DNA from: an uncultured Oscillospiraceae bacterium
GTDB taxonomy: Bacteria; Bacillota; Clostridia; Oscillospirales; Oscillospiraceae
Assembly (NCBI GenBank): GCA_949935795.1
Contig: CATLFX010000006.1
Location: 1-64,000 of the forward strand
Length of the DNA stretch: 64,000 bases
Direction of reading: 5' to 3'
In this document: in pieces, positions 21,988 through 28,325 of the stretch
Position numbering within the stretch: the stretch's first letter is position 1
Layout: every line of letters starts with the position of its first letter
Program-made: the position numbers and the translations under genes
The notes under the pieces: model-generated
The model's database searches: none
Told to the model about the DNA's origin: nothing
Seen by the model: the letters and a program-made list of their open reading frames with translations, nothing else

Positions 21988-22016
21988 TTGACAGGACCAC
22001 TCCGGCATATTACAAT
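21988..22016 (+). promoter_or_regulatory. promoter of the dockerin/M60 gene
   Basis: Consensus TTGACA, 17 bases, TACAAT; start codon about 62 bases downstream behind AAGGAG. Confidence 0.75.
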
Positions 22017-22077: not shown

Positions 22078-25000
22078 ATGAAAACAGCGAAGCGATTGAT
22101 TTCCGGGATGCTCAGCCTGTTGATGGTGTGCTCCCTCTGCCTGACGGGCCTGCCCGTCTCCGCCAGAGCGGACGACGCCCCGGCCCTCACCGGCTCCATC
22201 GGGCTCATCCTCCGGTTCGACCTGCCCCAGACGCCGGAAAACGCCGCCGGACGGGATATCCGGCTCCAGGTCACCAGCGGCGGGAAGGACATCACCGTTC
22301 CCCTCCCTGACGGAACGGCGGACGTTCCCGTTGAGGTGGACAACATCAGCGGCGCCCCGCTGACCAACGAGAACGTATTGGGCTATTATAAGGTAGCGCT
22401 CACCGGCCTGCCCGCCGGACAGACCTATCAGGTGGCTCTCACCGGGACGGGCTATAAGACCTTCCAAACCTCCGTCAAGCTGGAGGGCTTCTCAAAGCTC
22501 CTCATCGCGGGCACCGGGGGCGGCACCTTCTCCCTGGGCGATGTAAACGGCGACGGCAAAATCGACAAGGCTGACCTGACCGCCATGGACGGCAAGCTGG
22601 GCGGGGACGACCTCGCCTATGACCTCAACGGAGACGGCAAGGTGGACGCCGTCGATCTGGCCTACATCAGCCACAACATCGGCTTCACCGGCCAGGTCCA
22701 GGCGCTGGACACCGCCGCCATCGTCTCTCCCACACTGGACACCAATGCCGTCACCATTGAGGGCAGCACGGCCAGCCTGTTTCAGGACGAGGGCGAGGTG
22801 AAGCTGACCCCAAAAACGGCGGACGCAAAAAAGATCTCCCTGCCCATTGACCTTGGCGCGAACGCTGTGGAGATGAGCCAGATCCAGATCACCTGCCCCG
22901 ACGCCTCCGGCGCTGTCCAGAAGGGAACGGCCCTGGTGGAGCTGGAGGATAAAACCACTCTTACCGTGCCCTTTGGCGCCACCCTCCCCGAGGGAGTCCA
23001 CGCCATCGGCAGGACCGTGGGAGAGCGGGTGATTACCATCGACCTGGGCAAGCGGGTGCCGGTGAAGAAGGTCACCATCACCGTCACCGCCACCCAGGGC
23101 AACGCTGGGTTTGCCGTGGTGCGCCAAATCGAGTTTTTAAAGGACATCGTGCCGGAAAATCCCAAAAACGACCAGCCCCGGATTGTGTCCGCCGTGCCGG
23201 GGGACAAGCAGGTGGCCTTGGAGTGGACCGCCGTGCGCAACATCACCGGCTATGTCATCCACTACGGCACCAGCGGCAAGCTGGACCGGCAGATGCCCGC
23301 CAGCTCCACCCAGGCCACGGTCACGGGGCTGGAGAACCTGAAATCCTACCAGTTCCAGGTCACCCCCGTCAACGACGAATGGAGCGGTATGCCCTCGGCG
23401 GCGGTGTCCGCCACACCCCAGCCCTCCAAGGTTCCCGGCGCGCCCTCCAATATTTCCGTGACCCCCGCCGACCAGTCCCTGCGGCTGAGCTGGGGCAAAA
23501 CCGAGGACGCCGCCTATTACCAGGTGTTCTACCGCGAGAAGGGGCAGAATGACTTTGCCCAGTACGGAGGCAATCTCTCCGGCACCTCCGCTTTCCTCAC
23601 CGAGCTCACCAACGGCACTGCCTATGAGGTGGCCGTGAAGGCGGGCAACGGCAAGGGCACAGGCCCCTACTCCGCCATTGCCTCCGGCACCCCCAAGAAG
23701 GAGTCGCTGGACATGCCCGACCTGCCCCAGCAGGACCGCATTGACAACAGCCACGTAATCGAGGTCACGATGACCAATCCCAACAATGTAAACCGAAGCC
23801 TCTGCCCCGGCTTTGCCCCCAAGCAGGTGGTGGACGGCGACGCGGCCACCTACTGGGTCGCCCGGTCCTTCTGGGAGAGCATGGAGTTTACCTACACCTT
23901 TGATGAGCCTCAGGACATGAACTACGCCATCTGGGTCCCCTATCTCCAGGGCGACTATAAGTACATGATGGCCCGCTACTCGGTGACGGCCAAGGACGAG
24001 GAGGGCAATGTGATCTCCTCCGGCACCTATCCGGCTCCCGCGATGACAGACAAAAACTACTCGGTGCTCACCTTCCCCATGGTCAAGGGAGTGAAGCAGC
24101 TGTCCATCAGCCTGGCCCAGGTGGAGGGGCGCAGGTCGGTCAATATCGCCGAGATGGCCTTCTACAAAAGCGACACTCTGGCGGAGGATATCGCCGCCCT
24201 CTTCACCGACGGCTCCTTCACCGCCCTCAAGAGCGGCGTGACCCCGGAGCAGGTCAGCGGCCTGTCCGACCGGCTGGAGGCCAGGGCCGACTTCTACCTG
24301 GACCTGGAGCGCATGCGCGACGAGGTGAAGCTGGCCCAGGCGCTGCTGGACGGCGGCGCCTCCGCCCTGGGCCTGGTCAAAAACGACTTCCAGCGCCGGG
24401 ACGGCAGTCTGGACAGCCAGTTTGGCCAGAGCGCCAGCAATCTCCAGCCTCTGGGGGTGACCGCCAAGGCGGGGGCCGCAGTGGCCGTCTACGCCCAGCT
24501 GCCCGGCGACAAACCGGTATACCTGATCCCCACCCAGTACTACGGCGAGTCCGGCATCTGGCGGGGCGCGGCCATTGAACTGGTGAACGGCCGCAACTAC
24601 ATCACCGTGCCCCAGATCGGCTCCCTGACCGATGAGCGGGGCGGCCCGCTGTACCTCACCTACGCCGGAGAAAATCCCCAGGGCATCAAGCTCCAGGTTC
24701 GGGGAGACAGCGGCGCCTTCACCGTGCCCGTGCTGGAGCTGTCCAACTGGTACAAGATGGATGAGGCCGCCCGCAAAGCCGCCGTCCGGACCTATGTGAC
24801 CCAGCTGGAGTCCTATGTGAGCGCCTTGAATTCCCCCAATTTGCAGCTTGACATCCGCAACGTCACCGAGATCTCCACCCCCAGCGTGCTGCTGTCCATC
24901 CCCGCCTCCCAGGCGCTGTCCGGGCTGAAGGGGCCCGGCGCGTCGGCGGATCAGATGGCCGACGCCATGTATCAGAACGTGCTGGCCTGGGAGGACGAGC

Positions 25001-26898
25001 TCTTCGTGGCCAACAAGGTCCAGGGCACCATCGGCTCCGATATGAAGACAGCCGATTACCGCTATCCCATGACCACCCGCCAGAACATCCGCTACATGCG
25101 CATGTTCGCCGGGGCCTTCATGTACGCCGCCGGAAACCATGTGGGCGTGGGCTTCGGCTCCACCTCCGGGCTGGTGTGCGGCAAACCTGTGTCCGCCACC
25201 GGCCAGGGCAAGGCCAACGGCCTGTTCGGCTGGGGCATCGCCCATGAGATCGGCCACAACATGGACAAGCTGGGCAAGGCGGAGATCACCAACAATATCT
25301 ACTCCCTGGCAATTCAGGCCTACGACGGCGGCTCCATGGCCCTGCCCACCCGGCTGACCAACAGCAATATCTGGGATAAAGTCTATGAAAAGACCGCCGC
25401 TGGGCGGCCCGGCTCCGCCGGAAACGTGTTCGTCCAGCTGGGCATGTACTGGCAGCTCCACCTGGCCTACGACAACGGAGACCAGCCGCTGAATTTCTTC
25501 AATCAGTTCTTCAAGGCCTGGAAGGCCGGAGAATTCAAGGACGGCTTCACCTATGACGAACGGGTGGCCCTCATCGCCTCCAAGACGGCCAACAAGAACC
25601 TGACGCAGTTCTTCACCCGCTGGGGCATGACCCTGGGCGGGGAGGCAGAAAAAGCCATGGCGGCTCTGCCCAAAGAGGAGCGCGCCGTCTGGTATCTCAA
25701 CGACGGTTCCTACGCCGCGCGGCTGGCGGGGACCAAAAAGGCCGATATGTCCGTCACCCTGTCCGCCGAGGTCAAGGAAAATAAAGCCACGTTGACCATC
25801 CAGGGCGGAAATGAGTCCATCCTGGGCTATGAAATCCATCGGAACGGCAAGTCCATCGCCTTTACCACCGGGACAACCTACACCGACGATCTGGGCCCCG
25901 CCAACAACCTGACCTACGCCTACAGTGTGGTTCCCGTGGACAAGCTGGGCAACATGGGCGATGAGGCCAAGGCCAACGAGGTGCGCGTCGCCTGGGATAC
26001 CGCCATCGACTCCAGCCGGTACGACGTGGCCCTGGAGAACGGCACGGCCACCTTTACCATGAAGAACGGCGCGGTCCCCGTCACCGGCGTGAAAATCACC
26101 GGGACAGCGCTGGCCGGAACCTACACCGTGGAGATCAAGGCCAGCGCCTCCGACGCCAATTGGACAACCGTCAAAACCGGCGGGCTTTCCGGCAGCGAGA
26201 CGGTGGGCTACTTCACCAAGCCCAAGGCGGACGCCTCCGACACCCGCATTTGGACCTACGACGCGGCGGTGGTGCGGGTCACGGGACTTCCCGAGAAGGC
26301 CCAGGCCGTCCTGCTGAGCGACCCCGGCGACCGGGTGGACTTCTACGGCGAAGGGGCCGTGGCGGGCAGGCTGGCCAACGACTACACCTACACGGACGAG
26401 AAAAACAAGACACAGACCATTAAAAAGGGTACGCTGGTCATCATAGGGACCTATCGCGGCGACCCGGTGTACAATTTCGTGGAGATCAAAGGCCGGTACG
26501 ACACCACCGGCGAAGCCCAGGAGGACGAAGCGGGCGGCGGCGCCACTCAGACAGAGCGGCTGATGAACGGCTATTCCCTGCTCTTCGCCGAGATCCCCGC
26601 AGACGGCGCGGTAAGCGACATCAGCGACGGCTTCTGGCTCTTTGTGCCCGACCTGGAGGCGGAGAAAAAGCTGATGGAACAGAGCGCCCCGCAGTCTGAC
26701 ACGGACGGCCCGGCCCAGGACGATCCGCAGAACAGCGCTCTCCCCCAGGGCCCGATGGAAATCAGCGCGGTACTCCGCCGCACCGACACCCCCAGCAGCG
26801 CGGAAGAAGACCGAAACACCAGCCGGACGCTTTGGGTCAGCTTCCCCGGCTATGACAACCTGCCCCAGATCGATCTGAAGGGCGGGGCCGCCCAATGA
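22078..26898 (+). CDS. secreted dockerin-containing M60-like (mucin-type) metallopeptidase
   Basis: 1606 residues from the ATG at 22078 (AAGGAG eight bases upstream; the GTG at 22069 overlaps that site). Signal peptide 1-31. Type I dockerin at about 153-205 with two calcium loops (DVNGDGKIDKADL and DLNGDGKVDAVDL). Two fibronectin III domains at about 367-540, then a discoidin-like region (557-701). The peptidase domain holds HEIGHNMDKLGKAE near residue 1056, the HExxH plus distal Glu zinc signature of the M60/enhancin-like family, known for cleaving mucin-type glycoproteins. More beta domains follow. No membrane anchor of its own. The dockerin implies docking to a cohesin; the next gene encodes an SLH surface protein and lies 14 bases on. 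Confidence 0.92.
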   Translation: MKTAKRLISGMLSLLMVCSLCLTGLPVSARADDAPALTGSIGLILRFDLPQTPENAAGRDIRLQVTSGGKDITVPLPDGTADVPVEVDNISGAPLTNENVLGYYKVALTGLPAGQTYQVALTGTGYKTFQTSVKLEGFSKLLIAGTGGGTFSLGDVNGDGKIDKADLTAMDGKLGGDDLAYDLNGDGKVDAVDLAYISHNIGFTGQVQALDTAAIVSPTLDTNAVTIEGSTASLFQDEGEVKLTPKTADAKKISLPIDLGANAVEMSQIQITCPDASGAVQKGTALVELEDKTTLTVPFGATLPEGVHAIGRTVGERVITIDLGKRVPVKKVTITVTATQGNAGFAVVRQIEFLKDIVPENPKNDQPRIVSAVPGDKQVALEWTAVRNITGYVIHYGTSGKLDRQMPASSTQATVTGLENLKSYQFQVTPVNDEWSGMPSAAVSATPQPSKVPGAPSNISVTPADQSLRLSWGKTEDAAYYQVFYREKGQNDFAQYGGNLSGTSAFLTELTNGTAYEVAVKAGNGKGTGPYSAIASGTPKKESLDMPDLPQQDRIDNSHVIEVTMTNPNNVNRSLCPGFAPKQVVDGDAATYWVARSFWESMEFTYTFDEPQDMNYAIWVPYLQGDYKYMMARYSVTAKDEEGNVISSGTYPAPAMTDKNYSVLTFPMVKGVKQLSISLAQVEGRRSVNIAEMAFYKSDTLAEDIAALFTDGSFTALKSGVTPEQVSGLSDRLEARADFYLDLERMRDEVKLAQALLDGGASALGLVKNDFQRRDGSLDSQFGQSASNLQPLGVTAKAGAAVAVYAQLPGDKPVYLIPTQYYGESGIWRGAAIELVNGRNYITVPQIGSLTDERGGPLYLTYAGENPQGIKLQVRGDSGAFTVPVLELSNWYKMDEAARKAAVRTYVTQLESYVSALNSPNLQLDIRNVTEISTPSVLLSIPASQALSGLKGPGASADQMADAMYQNVLAWEDELFVANKVQGTIGSDMKTADYRYPMTTRQNIRYMRMFAGAFMYAAGNHVGVGFGSTSGLVCGKPVSATGQGKANGLFGWGIAHEIGHNMDKLGKAEITNNIYSLAIQAYDGGSMALPTRLTNSNIWDKVYEKTAAGRPGSAGNVFVQLGMYWQLHLAYDNGDQPLNFFNQFFKAWKAGEFKDGFTYDERVALIASKTANKNLTQFFTRWGMTLGGEAEKAMAALPKEERAVWYLNDGSYAARLAGTKKADMSVTLSAEVKENKATLTIQGGNESILGYEIHRNGKSIAFTTGTTYTDDLGPANNLTYAYSVVPVDKLGNMGDEAKANEVRVAWDTAIDSSRYDVALENGTATFTMKNGAVPVTGVKITGTALAGTYTVEIKASASDANWTTVKTGGLSGSETVGYFTKPKADASDTRIWTYDAAVVRVTGLPEKAQAVLLSDPGDRVDFYGEGAVAGRLANDYTYTDEKNKTQTIKKGTLVIIGTYRGDPVYNFVEIKGRYDTTGEAQEDEAGGGATQTERLMNGYSLLFAEIPADGAVSDISDGFWLFVPDLEAEKKLMEQSAPQSDTDGPAQDDPQNSALPQGPMEISAVLRRTDTPSSAEEDRNTSRTLWVSFPGYDNLPQIDLKGGAAQ

Positions 26899-26912
26899 GG
26901 AGGTTTACATCC

Positions 26913-28250
26913 ATGAAACGCATTCTTTCCCTGCTCCTGACCGCGGCTCTGGCCGCCGCCCTGCTGGCGTGCCCGGCGGCGGCCGCCGGTTCCGCCCCCT
27001 GGGTCCAGGTAAACGGCCAGTCGGTCAGCCTCCAGGGACTGCCTGAGCAGTACCACGCCGTCCAGATCACCTTTGAACTGAACCAGGCGGCAGACTCCAG
27101 CTCGTTCCGCTTTGACGCCTCCCTGTCCGGCGAAAATATCCACACCACGTACACCGTAAATGGAGACAGCCTGACCCTCTACGTGTCCTCCGGGAGCATA
27201 CTGAACCGGGGCGGCTCCCTCACGCTGGGCTCCCTGTCCGGCCAGGGCCTCGCCTTGGAGCGCGCCTCCGGCCTGAAGCTGACCACCGTGGGCTCCAACC
27301 CCTCCCAGACAAAAACCACCGTCCATGACACCGTGAATAAGACCACCGGCTCTGCCCCGGGCTCCGGCGGGAGCGGCGGGTATGATCCGGGCTCCAGCGG
27401 AGGCGGCGGATACTATCCCGGCTCCGGCGGAAGCGGCGGCGCGGCCCGCTATTCGGTGGGCGCAGCCTCCGTCACTGGCGGCACACTTCAATTCAGCTCC
27501 ACCCGCGCCGCCCAGGGAGAGACGGTCACCGTCACCGCCACCCCCAACTCCGGCTGCCTCTTCCGCTCCCTGTCCGTCACCGACGGCACGGGCCGGGAAA
27601 TCACTATCACCGACCTGGGCGGCGGCAAATGGGCCTTCACCATGCCCGCCTCCGCCGTCACCGTCACCGCCAGCTTCACCCCCGCCCAGTCCGACTCCCT
27701 GCCCTTTGCCGACGTGGGGCCCGGCGACTGGTTCCGAGACGCCGCGGCCTACGTCTACAGCCGCCAGCTGATGAACGGCACCGCCCCCGACGCATTCTCC
27801 CCCTATGAGACCACCACCAGGGCCATGATCGTCACCATCCTGTACCGCTACGAGGGCTCTCCGACGGCGGGAAGCTCCAGCTTCCAGGACGTTCCGGCGG
27901 GGCAGTACTACACCAACGCCGTGGCCTGGGCCGCCCAGCACGGGGTGGTCAACGGCTACAGCGCCGCCCAGTTCGGCCCCAATGACACCATCACGCGGGA
28001 ACAGATGGCGGCCATTCTCTACCGCTACGCCCAGTACAAGGGGATGGACGTCAGCGGCCGGGCGGACCTGTCCCGCTACTCCGACGGAAACCGGGTGAGC
28101 TCTTACGCCAGGGACGCCATGGCCTGGGCCAACCATCAGGCCTTCATCAACGGGGTGGACAGCTATACCCTCCAGCCCGGCGGCTTCGCCAACCGGGCCC
28201 AGGTGGCCACCATCCTCATGCGGTTCTGCCAGTACGCGGAGAACCCGTGA
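26913..28250 (+). CDS. SLH-domain surface protein
   Basis: 445 residues from the ATG at 26913; AGGAGG lies nine bases upstream, and the ATG at 26895 overlapping the previous gene is less suited. Signal peptide 1-25 (MKRILSLLLTAALAAALLAC). Residues 28-130 form a beta-rich module of unknown family. A Gly/Ser linker (about 145-175, GSGGSGGYDPGSSGGGG) leads to a Big/repeat-type beta module, then three SLH motifs (FADVGPGDWFRDAA, FQDVPAGQYYTNAV, RYSDGNRVSSYARDA) that bind pyruvylated cell-wall polymer. The likely role is to display the N-terminal module, perhaps holding the upstream dockerin enzyme. Same transcript as the peptidase. Confidence 0.9.
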   Translation: MKRILSLLLTAALAAALLACPAAAAGSAPWVQVNGQSVSLQGLPEQYHAVQITFELNQAADSSSFRFDASLSGENIHTTYTVNGDSLTLYVSSGSILNRGGSLTLGSLSGQGLALERASGLKLTTVGSNPSQTKTTVHDTVNKTTGSAPGSGGSGGYDPGSSGGGGYYPGSGGSGGAARYSVGAASVTGGTLQFSSTRAAQGETVTVTATPNSGCLFRSLSVTDGTGREITITDLGGGKWAFTMPASAVTVTASFTPAQSDSLPFADVGPGDWFRDAAAYVYSRQLMNGTAPDAFSPYETTTRAMIVTILYRYEGSPTAGSSSFQDVPAGQYYTNAVAWAAQHGVVNGYSAAQFGPNDTITREQMAAILYRYAQYKGMDVSGRADLSRYSDGNRVSSYARDAMAWANHQAFINGVDSYTLQPGGFANRAQVATILMRFCQYAENP

Positions 28251-28293
28251 CCTGCCTTGACCGCTGCCGCACCGCCTGCTAAAAGACAAGCGA

Positions 28294-28325
28294 AACGCCT
28301 CCGCTTCCGGCGGAGGCGTTTTATT
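28294..28325. terminator. bidirectional terminator
   Basis: Stem AACGCCTCCG/CGGAGGCGTT with TTATTTTATT after it on the plus strand; it also lies next to the stop of the convergent minus gene at 28326. Confidence 0.85.

Follow-up and report, generated by a model that had tools for sequence, protein, structure and literature searches.

The peptidase gene reported here and the gene that follows it seem to form a two-gene surface docking unit, in which an SLH protein is likely the dedicated receptor of the X-dockerin carried by a secreted M60 metallopeptidase and would display this enzyme one-to-one and non-covalently at the cell surface. The best reading, which we also regard as likely, is that the pair is built on an unrecognised cohesin-like family. 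There are no binding data, and the binding and its stoichiometry are inferred; the receptor role is proposed because independent lines of evidence agree, namely gene adjacency, two predicted folds, the absence of Pfam cohesins, anchor swaps and same-genus analogues, with strong support from the genes and the folds. Both genes lie in the window (the whole stretch of 64,000 nt that was analysed), which is part of contig C6; the assembly comprises 70 contigs and 2.2 Mb and is about 70% complete. A first-pass annotation, made from sequence alone, had already suggested the SLH protein as docking partner, and this suggestion is now supported by computation. Its assignment of the host to a gut Clostridium failed, as the host is an Oscillospirales genome whose relatives are named Flavonifractor, Lawsonibacter, and Oscillospiraceae.

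The gene structure is shown (see the table), and the places of the two genes and the 14-base gap given by the first-pass annotation held. The best start for the M60 gene is ATG 22078, which has AAGGAG a short way upstream, and the TGA stop codon of this gene occupies positions 26896-26898. The anchor gene starts 14 nt past this stop, at ATG 26913. Since an AGGAGG motif overlaps the M60 stop codon, translational coupling of the two genes is suggested, which we consider likely. These two genes, and no others, lie between a promoter-like match (21988-22016) and a strong terminator-like hairpin (28292-28322).

Table. Features of the two-gene unit (positions in the window)
Feature	Position	Strand	Basis
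Sigma-70-like promoter TTGACA-17-TACAAT, 11/12	21988..22016	+	Consensus match only
Secreted M60 metallopeptidase with X-module and dockerin	22078..26898	+	1606 aa from ATG 22078; homologues aligned
X-module, predicted beta-sandwich (~115 aa) immediately N-terminal to dockerin	22174..22533	+	AF2 model pLDDT 95; Foldseek to type II X-dockerins
Dockerin: calcium loops DVNGDGKIDKAD and DLNGDGKVDAVD with helices	22534..22680	+	Pfam PF00404; conservation in 71 homologues
M60 catalytic domain	25111..25626	+	Pfam, residues 1015-1186; HEIGH (H1059/E1060/H1063) and E1072
Shine-Dalgarno AGGAGG overlapping M60 stop codon	26898..26903	+	Sequence; like arrangement in congeners
Surface anchor protein: signal peptide, cohesin-like N-module, Gly-rich linker, B-repeat, three SLH	26913..28250	+	ORF, Pfam
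N-terminal cohesin-like module (~100 aa; proposed dockerin receptor)	26988..27302	+	AF2 pLDDT 90; Foldseek
InlB-type B-repeat, spacer missing from several congeners	27450..27686	+	Pfam PF18998; homologue alignment
Three SLH repeats, cell-wall polymer anchor	27702..28208	+	Pfam PF00395, E 8e-25
Intrinsic-terminator-like hairpin, 14 pairs and T-rich tail	28292..28322	+	Sequence; closes two-gene unit

The domains of both proteins are likewise shown. From its N-terminus, the peptidase contains a signal peptide (recognised by inspection), the X-module, the dockerin, a Pfam-blank stretch, two FN3 domains, a CBM32-like region (a sub-threshold F5/8 match in Pfam) and the M60 domain. The last of these matches PF13402 with E 5e-17 (62.7 bits against a cut-off of 25.8), and its HEXXH...E zinc motif (H1059, E1060, H1063, E1072) is invariant in 12 congeners, so that membership of Peptidase M60 is met. 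The nearest solved homologue is a clostridial M60 peptidase (PDB 7jfs, E 4.7e-34), which we take to be ZmpB. The enzyme is likely to attack mucus proteins; its mucin target, also assumed in the first-pass annotation, is an inference from M60/ZmpB homology. A Pfam search found no SLH or other anchor domain on the peptidase, and the earlier statement that it lacks an anchor of its own thus held, as did the presence of two dockerin calcium loops on a secreted metallopeptidase, both quoted loops being present.

Dockerin_1 (PF00404) was matched at residues 156-203 of the peptidase with E 4.6e-7 (30.4 bits against a cut-off of 22.9), and the same dockerin scored 37.2 bits in a genome-wide search of the assembly. 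Dockerin membership, defined by duplicated 12-residue calcium loops and a score over the Pfam cut-off, is met, and the key aspartates of the loops are invariant or nearly so across 71 homologues. In the AlphaFold2 model of the X-dockerin (pLDDT 95.3), the X-module and the dockerin form a predicted compact unit. A Foldseek search with this model gave 10 matches below E 0.001, all of which were chains of type II cohesin-X-dockerin complexes or X-dockerin-containing scaffoldin fragments; X-dockerins ranked first, followed by Ig-type folds and not by cohesins. Membership of the type II X-dockerin dyad, in which the X-module is packed N-terminal to the dockerin, is met in the predicted model. The N-terminus of the peptidase is therefore predicted to adopt a type II X-dockerin fold, whereas calcium-dependent cohesin binding is inferred.

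The next gene does encode an SLH-anchored surface protein, as claimed earlier, and its signal peptide (by inspection) and three SLH repeats meet the definition of that class. The AlphaFold2 model of its N-module, built on 76 homologues, has a mean pLDDT of 89.8 and nine strands. When this model was compared with 350,542 PDB chains by Foldseek, the top 21 matches were all cohesins, led by the non-cellulosomal cohesins of C. perfringens and Archaeoglobus, and more abundant beta-sandwiches (Ig, adhesins) ranked under them. The scores are modest (best E 4.6e-3; TM-scores normalised by query of 0.35-0.59 over the top 21). With this reservation, membership of the cohesin fold (a nine-stranded jelly-roll like solved cohesins) is met, and the N-module is predicted by the model to be of cohesin type; this is fold-level evidence, from which dockerin binding is only inferred. 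Membership of the cohesin family PF00963 is not met. Pfam gave no match to it in the window anchor protein, cohesin was absent from the 25 families shown for the 76 N-modules in a Pfam profile comparison, no cohesin match was obtained against PDB profiles, and hhalign against the cohesins of the genus gave a probability of 1%. Because the receptor fails the cohesin sequence test, we call the N-module cohesin-like by fold and do not file it under PF00963. A weak Lipocalin_4 match of the anchor protein (22.7 bits) was dismissed, as it occurs in only one of the 76 homologues.

The N-module and the X-dockerin were modelled independently, and by their predicted folds they correspond to the two sides of an established attachment system. 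Against the receptor reading, there is no sequence-level link between the N-module and cohesins and the Foldseek E-values are modest. On the same two points rests a rival explanation, that the N-module binds the peptidase off the dockerin, as a chaperone, inhibitor or glycan-binding co-receptor, its cohesin likeness being generic for beta-sandwiches. We consider this very unlikely, since far more abundant beta-sandwiches such as Ig domains and adhesins rank under cohesins, and a search with the second beta-sandwich model, that of the X-module and dockerin, returns X-dockerins and then Ig-type folds rather than cohesins.

The pairing of the two genes is conserved in relatives, as shown by several searches. 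A full-length M60-dockerin protein (60-69% identity) is present in 12 of the 42 genomes of the genus, strong N-module matches occur in the same 12, and in every one the N-module gene is the next gene downstream. A species-level genome collection was also scanned with the enzyme alignment (a single M60 sequence as query gave no match), and the best 80 loci were kept, from genomes named Flavonifractor, Lawsonibacter, Oscillibacter, Butyricicoccus, Neglectibacter, Anaerotignum, and others. Three loci were left out as their contigs end before the partner can be read. In all 77 evaluable loci the next gene carries the N-module (iterated HMM), and in 74 the partner also has SLH, the exceptions being due to a contig end (L095), a broken reading frame (L152) and a transmembrane helix (L141). 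The stop-to-start gap is -4 to +25 nt in 68 of the 77 loci, with start codons chosen heuristically, and the adjacency holds across 35-69% protein identity and several families of the order. To avoid query bias, 295 order-level genomes were searched with the N-module only, which yielded 15 loci in 14 genomes, all beside an M60 gene. An X-dockerin is present at 14 of them; the remaining one (L223 in G125) is a decayed locus, with an enzyme gene that has lost its 5' part and a partner without signal peptide whose frame is broken. These 295 genomes also gave 13 full-length X-dockerin matches, each of them beside an N-module. The M60/anchor pair is widespread in gut Oscillospirales and not a one-off, which qualifies the first-pass view that such a two-gene docking unit would be unusual. 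Most of these relatives are metagenome assemblies, and no near match was found in plasmids. The carriers of the pair include three cultured commensals, Flavonifractor sp. An92 (L094), Flintibacter muris DSM 110149 (L148) and Anaerotignum lactatifermentans DSM 14214 (L110). Locus L152 (Flavonifractor sp. AGMB03687) and L223 seem to lie on one and the same contig.

Conserved operons also arise without direct binding, and this counts against the receptor reading. A further rival holds that the dockerin is an intramolecular calcium-stabilised module only and that the neighbourhood has been inherited without function. The X-module and dockerin are indeed predicted to form a compact unit, but the adjacency persists to 35% protein identity across several families of the order and both genes decay together in one locus, so this rival is all but excluded. 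Among 65 complete pairs, N-module distances correlate with those of the X-module (r 0.89) and the dockerin (0.75); the corresponding values for SLH distances are 0.46 and 0.42. Given M60 and SLH, the partial correlations of the N-module are 0.50 with the X-module and 0.40 with the dockerin. These correlations carry limited weight for the dedicated-receptor reading, as shared ancestry and rate variation could partly explain the similar trees.

An SLH protein beside the peptidase gene by chance was rejected as an explanation, because the 42 SLH repeats of the 2.2-Mb assembly sit in only about 17 proteins, and dozens of genomes have an SLH neighbour in this very position. As a separate observation, these proteins point to an SLH-based surface layer; in this small genome (G000), SLH proteins are found on contigs C2, C3, C5, C6, C9, C19, C20, C22, C28, C33, C34, and C40.

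A genome-wide search for other dockerins and cohesins, proposed with the first-pass annotation, showed that the dockerin of the peptidase is the sole one found in the assembly (about 70% complete) and that no Pfam cohesin is found there. The same holds for the 12 congeners with the M60 pair, which have one dockerin and no Pfam cohesin; eight of them are listed as at least 90% complete. A classical cohesin scaffold elsewhere in the genome, which the first-pass annotation had named, together with a lack of binding, as refuting its proposal, was therefore not encountered. Membership of cellulosomes or mucinolysomes, which combine a multi-cohesin scaffoldin with several dockerin enzymes, is not met, and because there is one dockerin and no scaffoldin, the M60/anchor system is not a cellulosome or mucinolysome. 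It could still be argued that the partner of the dockerin is a different cohesin, unrecognised and encoded elsewhere in the genome, and that the SLH neighbour has a separate co-regulated role, for example adhesion. In favour of this rival, the window assembly is incomplete, and Pfam searches would miss another divergent cohesin just as they miss the N-module, a blindness that also counts against the receptor reading. However, the 12 congeners that carry the pair gave no Pfam cohesin, and the rival leaves both the cohesin-like fold of the N-module and its exclusive adjacency to M60 genes unexplained. We regard it as unlikely.

Swapping of the anchor is shown in several relatives. In G005, G006, G227, and Negativibacillus (L141), the partner keeps the N-module and a C-terminal transmembrane helix with a basic tail replaces SLH; the enzyme and the N-module are divergent in G005 and G006. 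The M60 proteins of G030 and G027 each carry three fused SLH repeats of their own, and the search gave no N-module match in either genome. From the anchor swaps and the SLH-M60 fusions, we therefore conclude that enzyme display is the conserved feature and that the partner supplies an anchor, although the surface location itself is inferred. A point against the receptor reading is that G030 keeps a dockerin-like module although its M60 protein has its own SLH.

Units of one dockerin protein and one anchored cohesin recur in the genus, some of them with recognisable cohesins. Four genomes (G004, G019, G021, and G041) encode a dockerin enzyme of ~2,590 aa directly beside a protein of 400-450 aa that combines a Pfam cohesin with three SLH repeats; Pfam annotation, made for L164, identifies the enzyme there as an S8 subtilase (the loci of this unit are L164, L165, L166, and L167). 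In G001, G002, G003, G005, G016, G018, and G020, a ~675-710-aa protein with a C-terminal dockerin lies beside a protein with a cohesin-like domain, which has a transmembrane segment in G003. The loci of this second unit, present in these seven congeners, are L175, L177, and L238-L242, and its dockerin protein is SH3/cadherin-like.

Two giant reading frames were also observed. In a same-family genome (G320, contig C3:40068-162152; L246-L251, L243), an uninterrupted frame of 40,694 aa contains no N bases and little exact repetition, with 66.6% GC in L243; it opens with a signal-peptide-like stretch, and an EF-hand/dockerin-like loop, DFDGNGILTDAD, lies close to the end. If real, it would be among the largest bacterial proteins. 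The 50.7-kb contig C11 of G029 (L016, L174, L244) is nearly all one minus-strand frame of 16,696 aa, which is Gly/Thr-rich and has a weak N-module match.

In the mechanism that we propose, the peptidase would be secreted and its N-terminal X-module and dockerin would fold, with calcium bound by the two loops. The anchor protein would also be secreted, and its SLH repeats would hold it to the cell wall, with the cohesin-like N-module exposed at the end of a flexible linker. Docking of the X-dockerin on the N-module would then hold the M60 peptidase non-covalently at the cell surface, one enzyme per anchor, where it would probably clip O-glycosylated (mucin-type) proteins.

Such docking has clear parallels. 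In cellulosomes, a type II X-dockerin fastens the scaffoldin to cohesins of cell-surface proteins, many of which are held by SLH (PMC12484212). The present pair resembles this joint (PDB 2b59, 5k39, 4u3s; PMC12484212) in its predicted X-dockerin dyad, its cohesin-type module with SLH and its proposed role in cell-surface attachment, but here the X-dockerin is directly on an enzyme without any scaffoldin, and no similarity of the receptor module to known cohesins can be detected at sequence level. The complexes between X82 cohesins and FIVAR-dockerin glycosidases of Clostridium perfringens (PDB 2jh2, 2vo8, 2jnk) are a similar non-cellulosomal use of cohesins and dockerins in host-glycan degradation, and the N-module has some of its closest fold matches in these cohesins. 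There, both modules are on enzymes and join enzyme to enzyme, whereas here one partner is a non-catalytic anchor. The Limousia mucinolysome (PMC12997984), proposed for mucin degradation, shares cohesin-dockerin organisation in gut Firmicutes; it relies on multi-enzyme scaffoldins, numerous dockerins and anchoring by sortase, in contrast to one enzyme, one anchor and no Pfam cohesin here. Mucin peptidases of the M60-like/PF13402 family (PMC3267712; ZmpB structures 7jfs, 5kdj) have the same catalytic domain, FN3 and CBM32-like modules, to which an X-dockerin and an adjacent dedicated anchor are added here. The 2012 survey defining that family counted 2 dockerin proteins in 415 and showed the anchor of its Clostridium and Bacillus members as unknown (PMC3267712); a gap of this kind is one that docking on a neighbour could fill. 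No description of the M60/anchor pair was found in the open-access literature searched; subscription journals may hold one.

A bolder reading is that the N-module founds a new cohesin class dedicated to enzyme-borne X-dockerins, without detectable sequence kinship to Pfam cohesins, and that gut Oscillospirales use general one-enzyme/one-anchor docking, in which SLH and transmembrane anchors can be exchanged, in place of both cellulosomes and direct anchoring. Taken jointly, we judge these claims more likely than not. Most of what is known about cohesin-dockerin docking comes from scaffolds for cellulose degradation. If our reading is true, there would be a new orthogonal cohesin-dockerin family, of which about 80 natural pairs have been sampled, for specificity studies and display tools, and a one-to-one enzyme-anchor version of such docking, found on a mucin-type peptidase and spread across common gut Oscillospirales, would explain the surface retention of anchorless peptidases.
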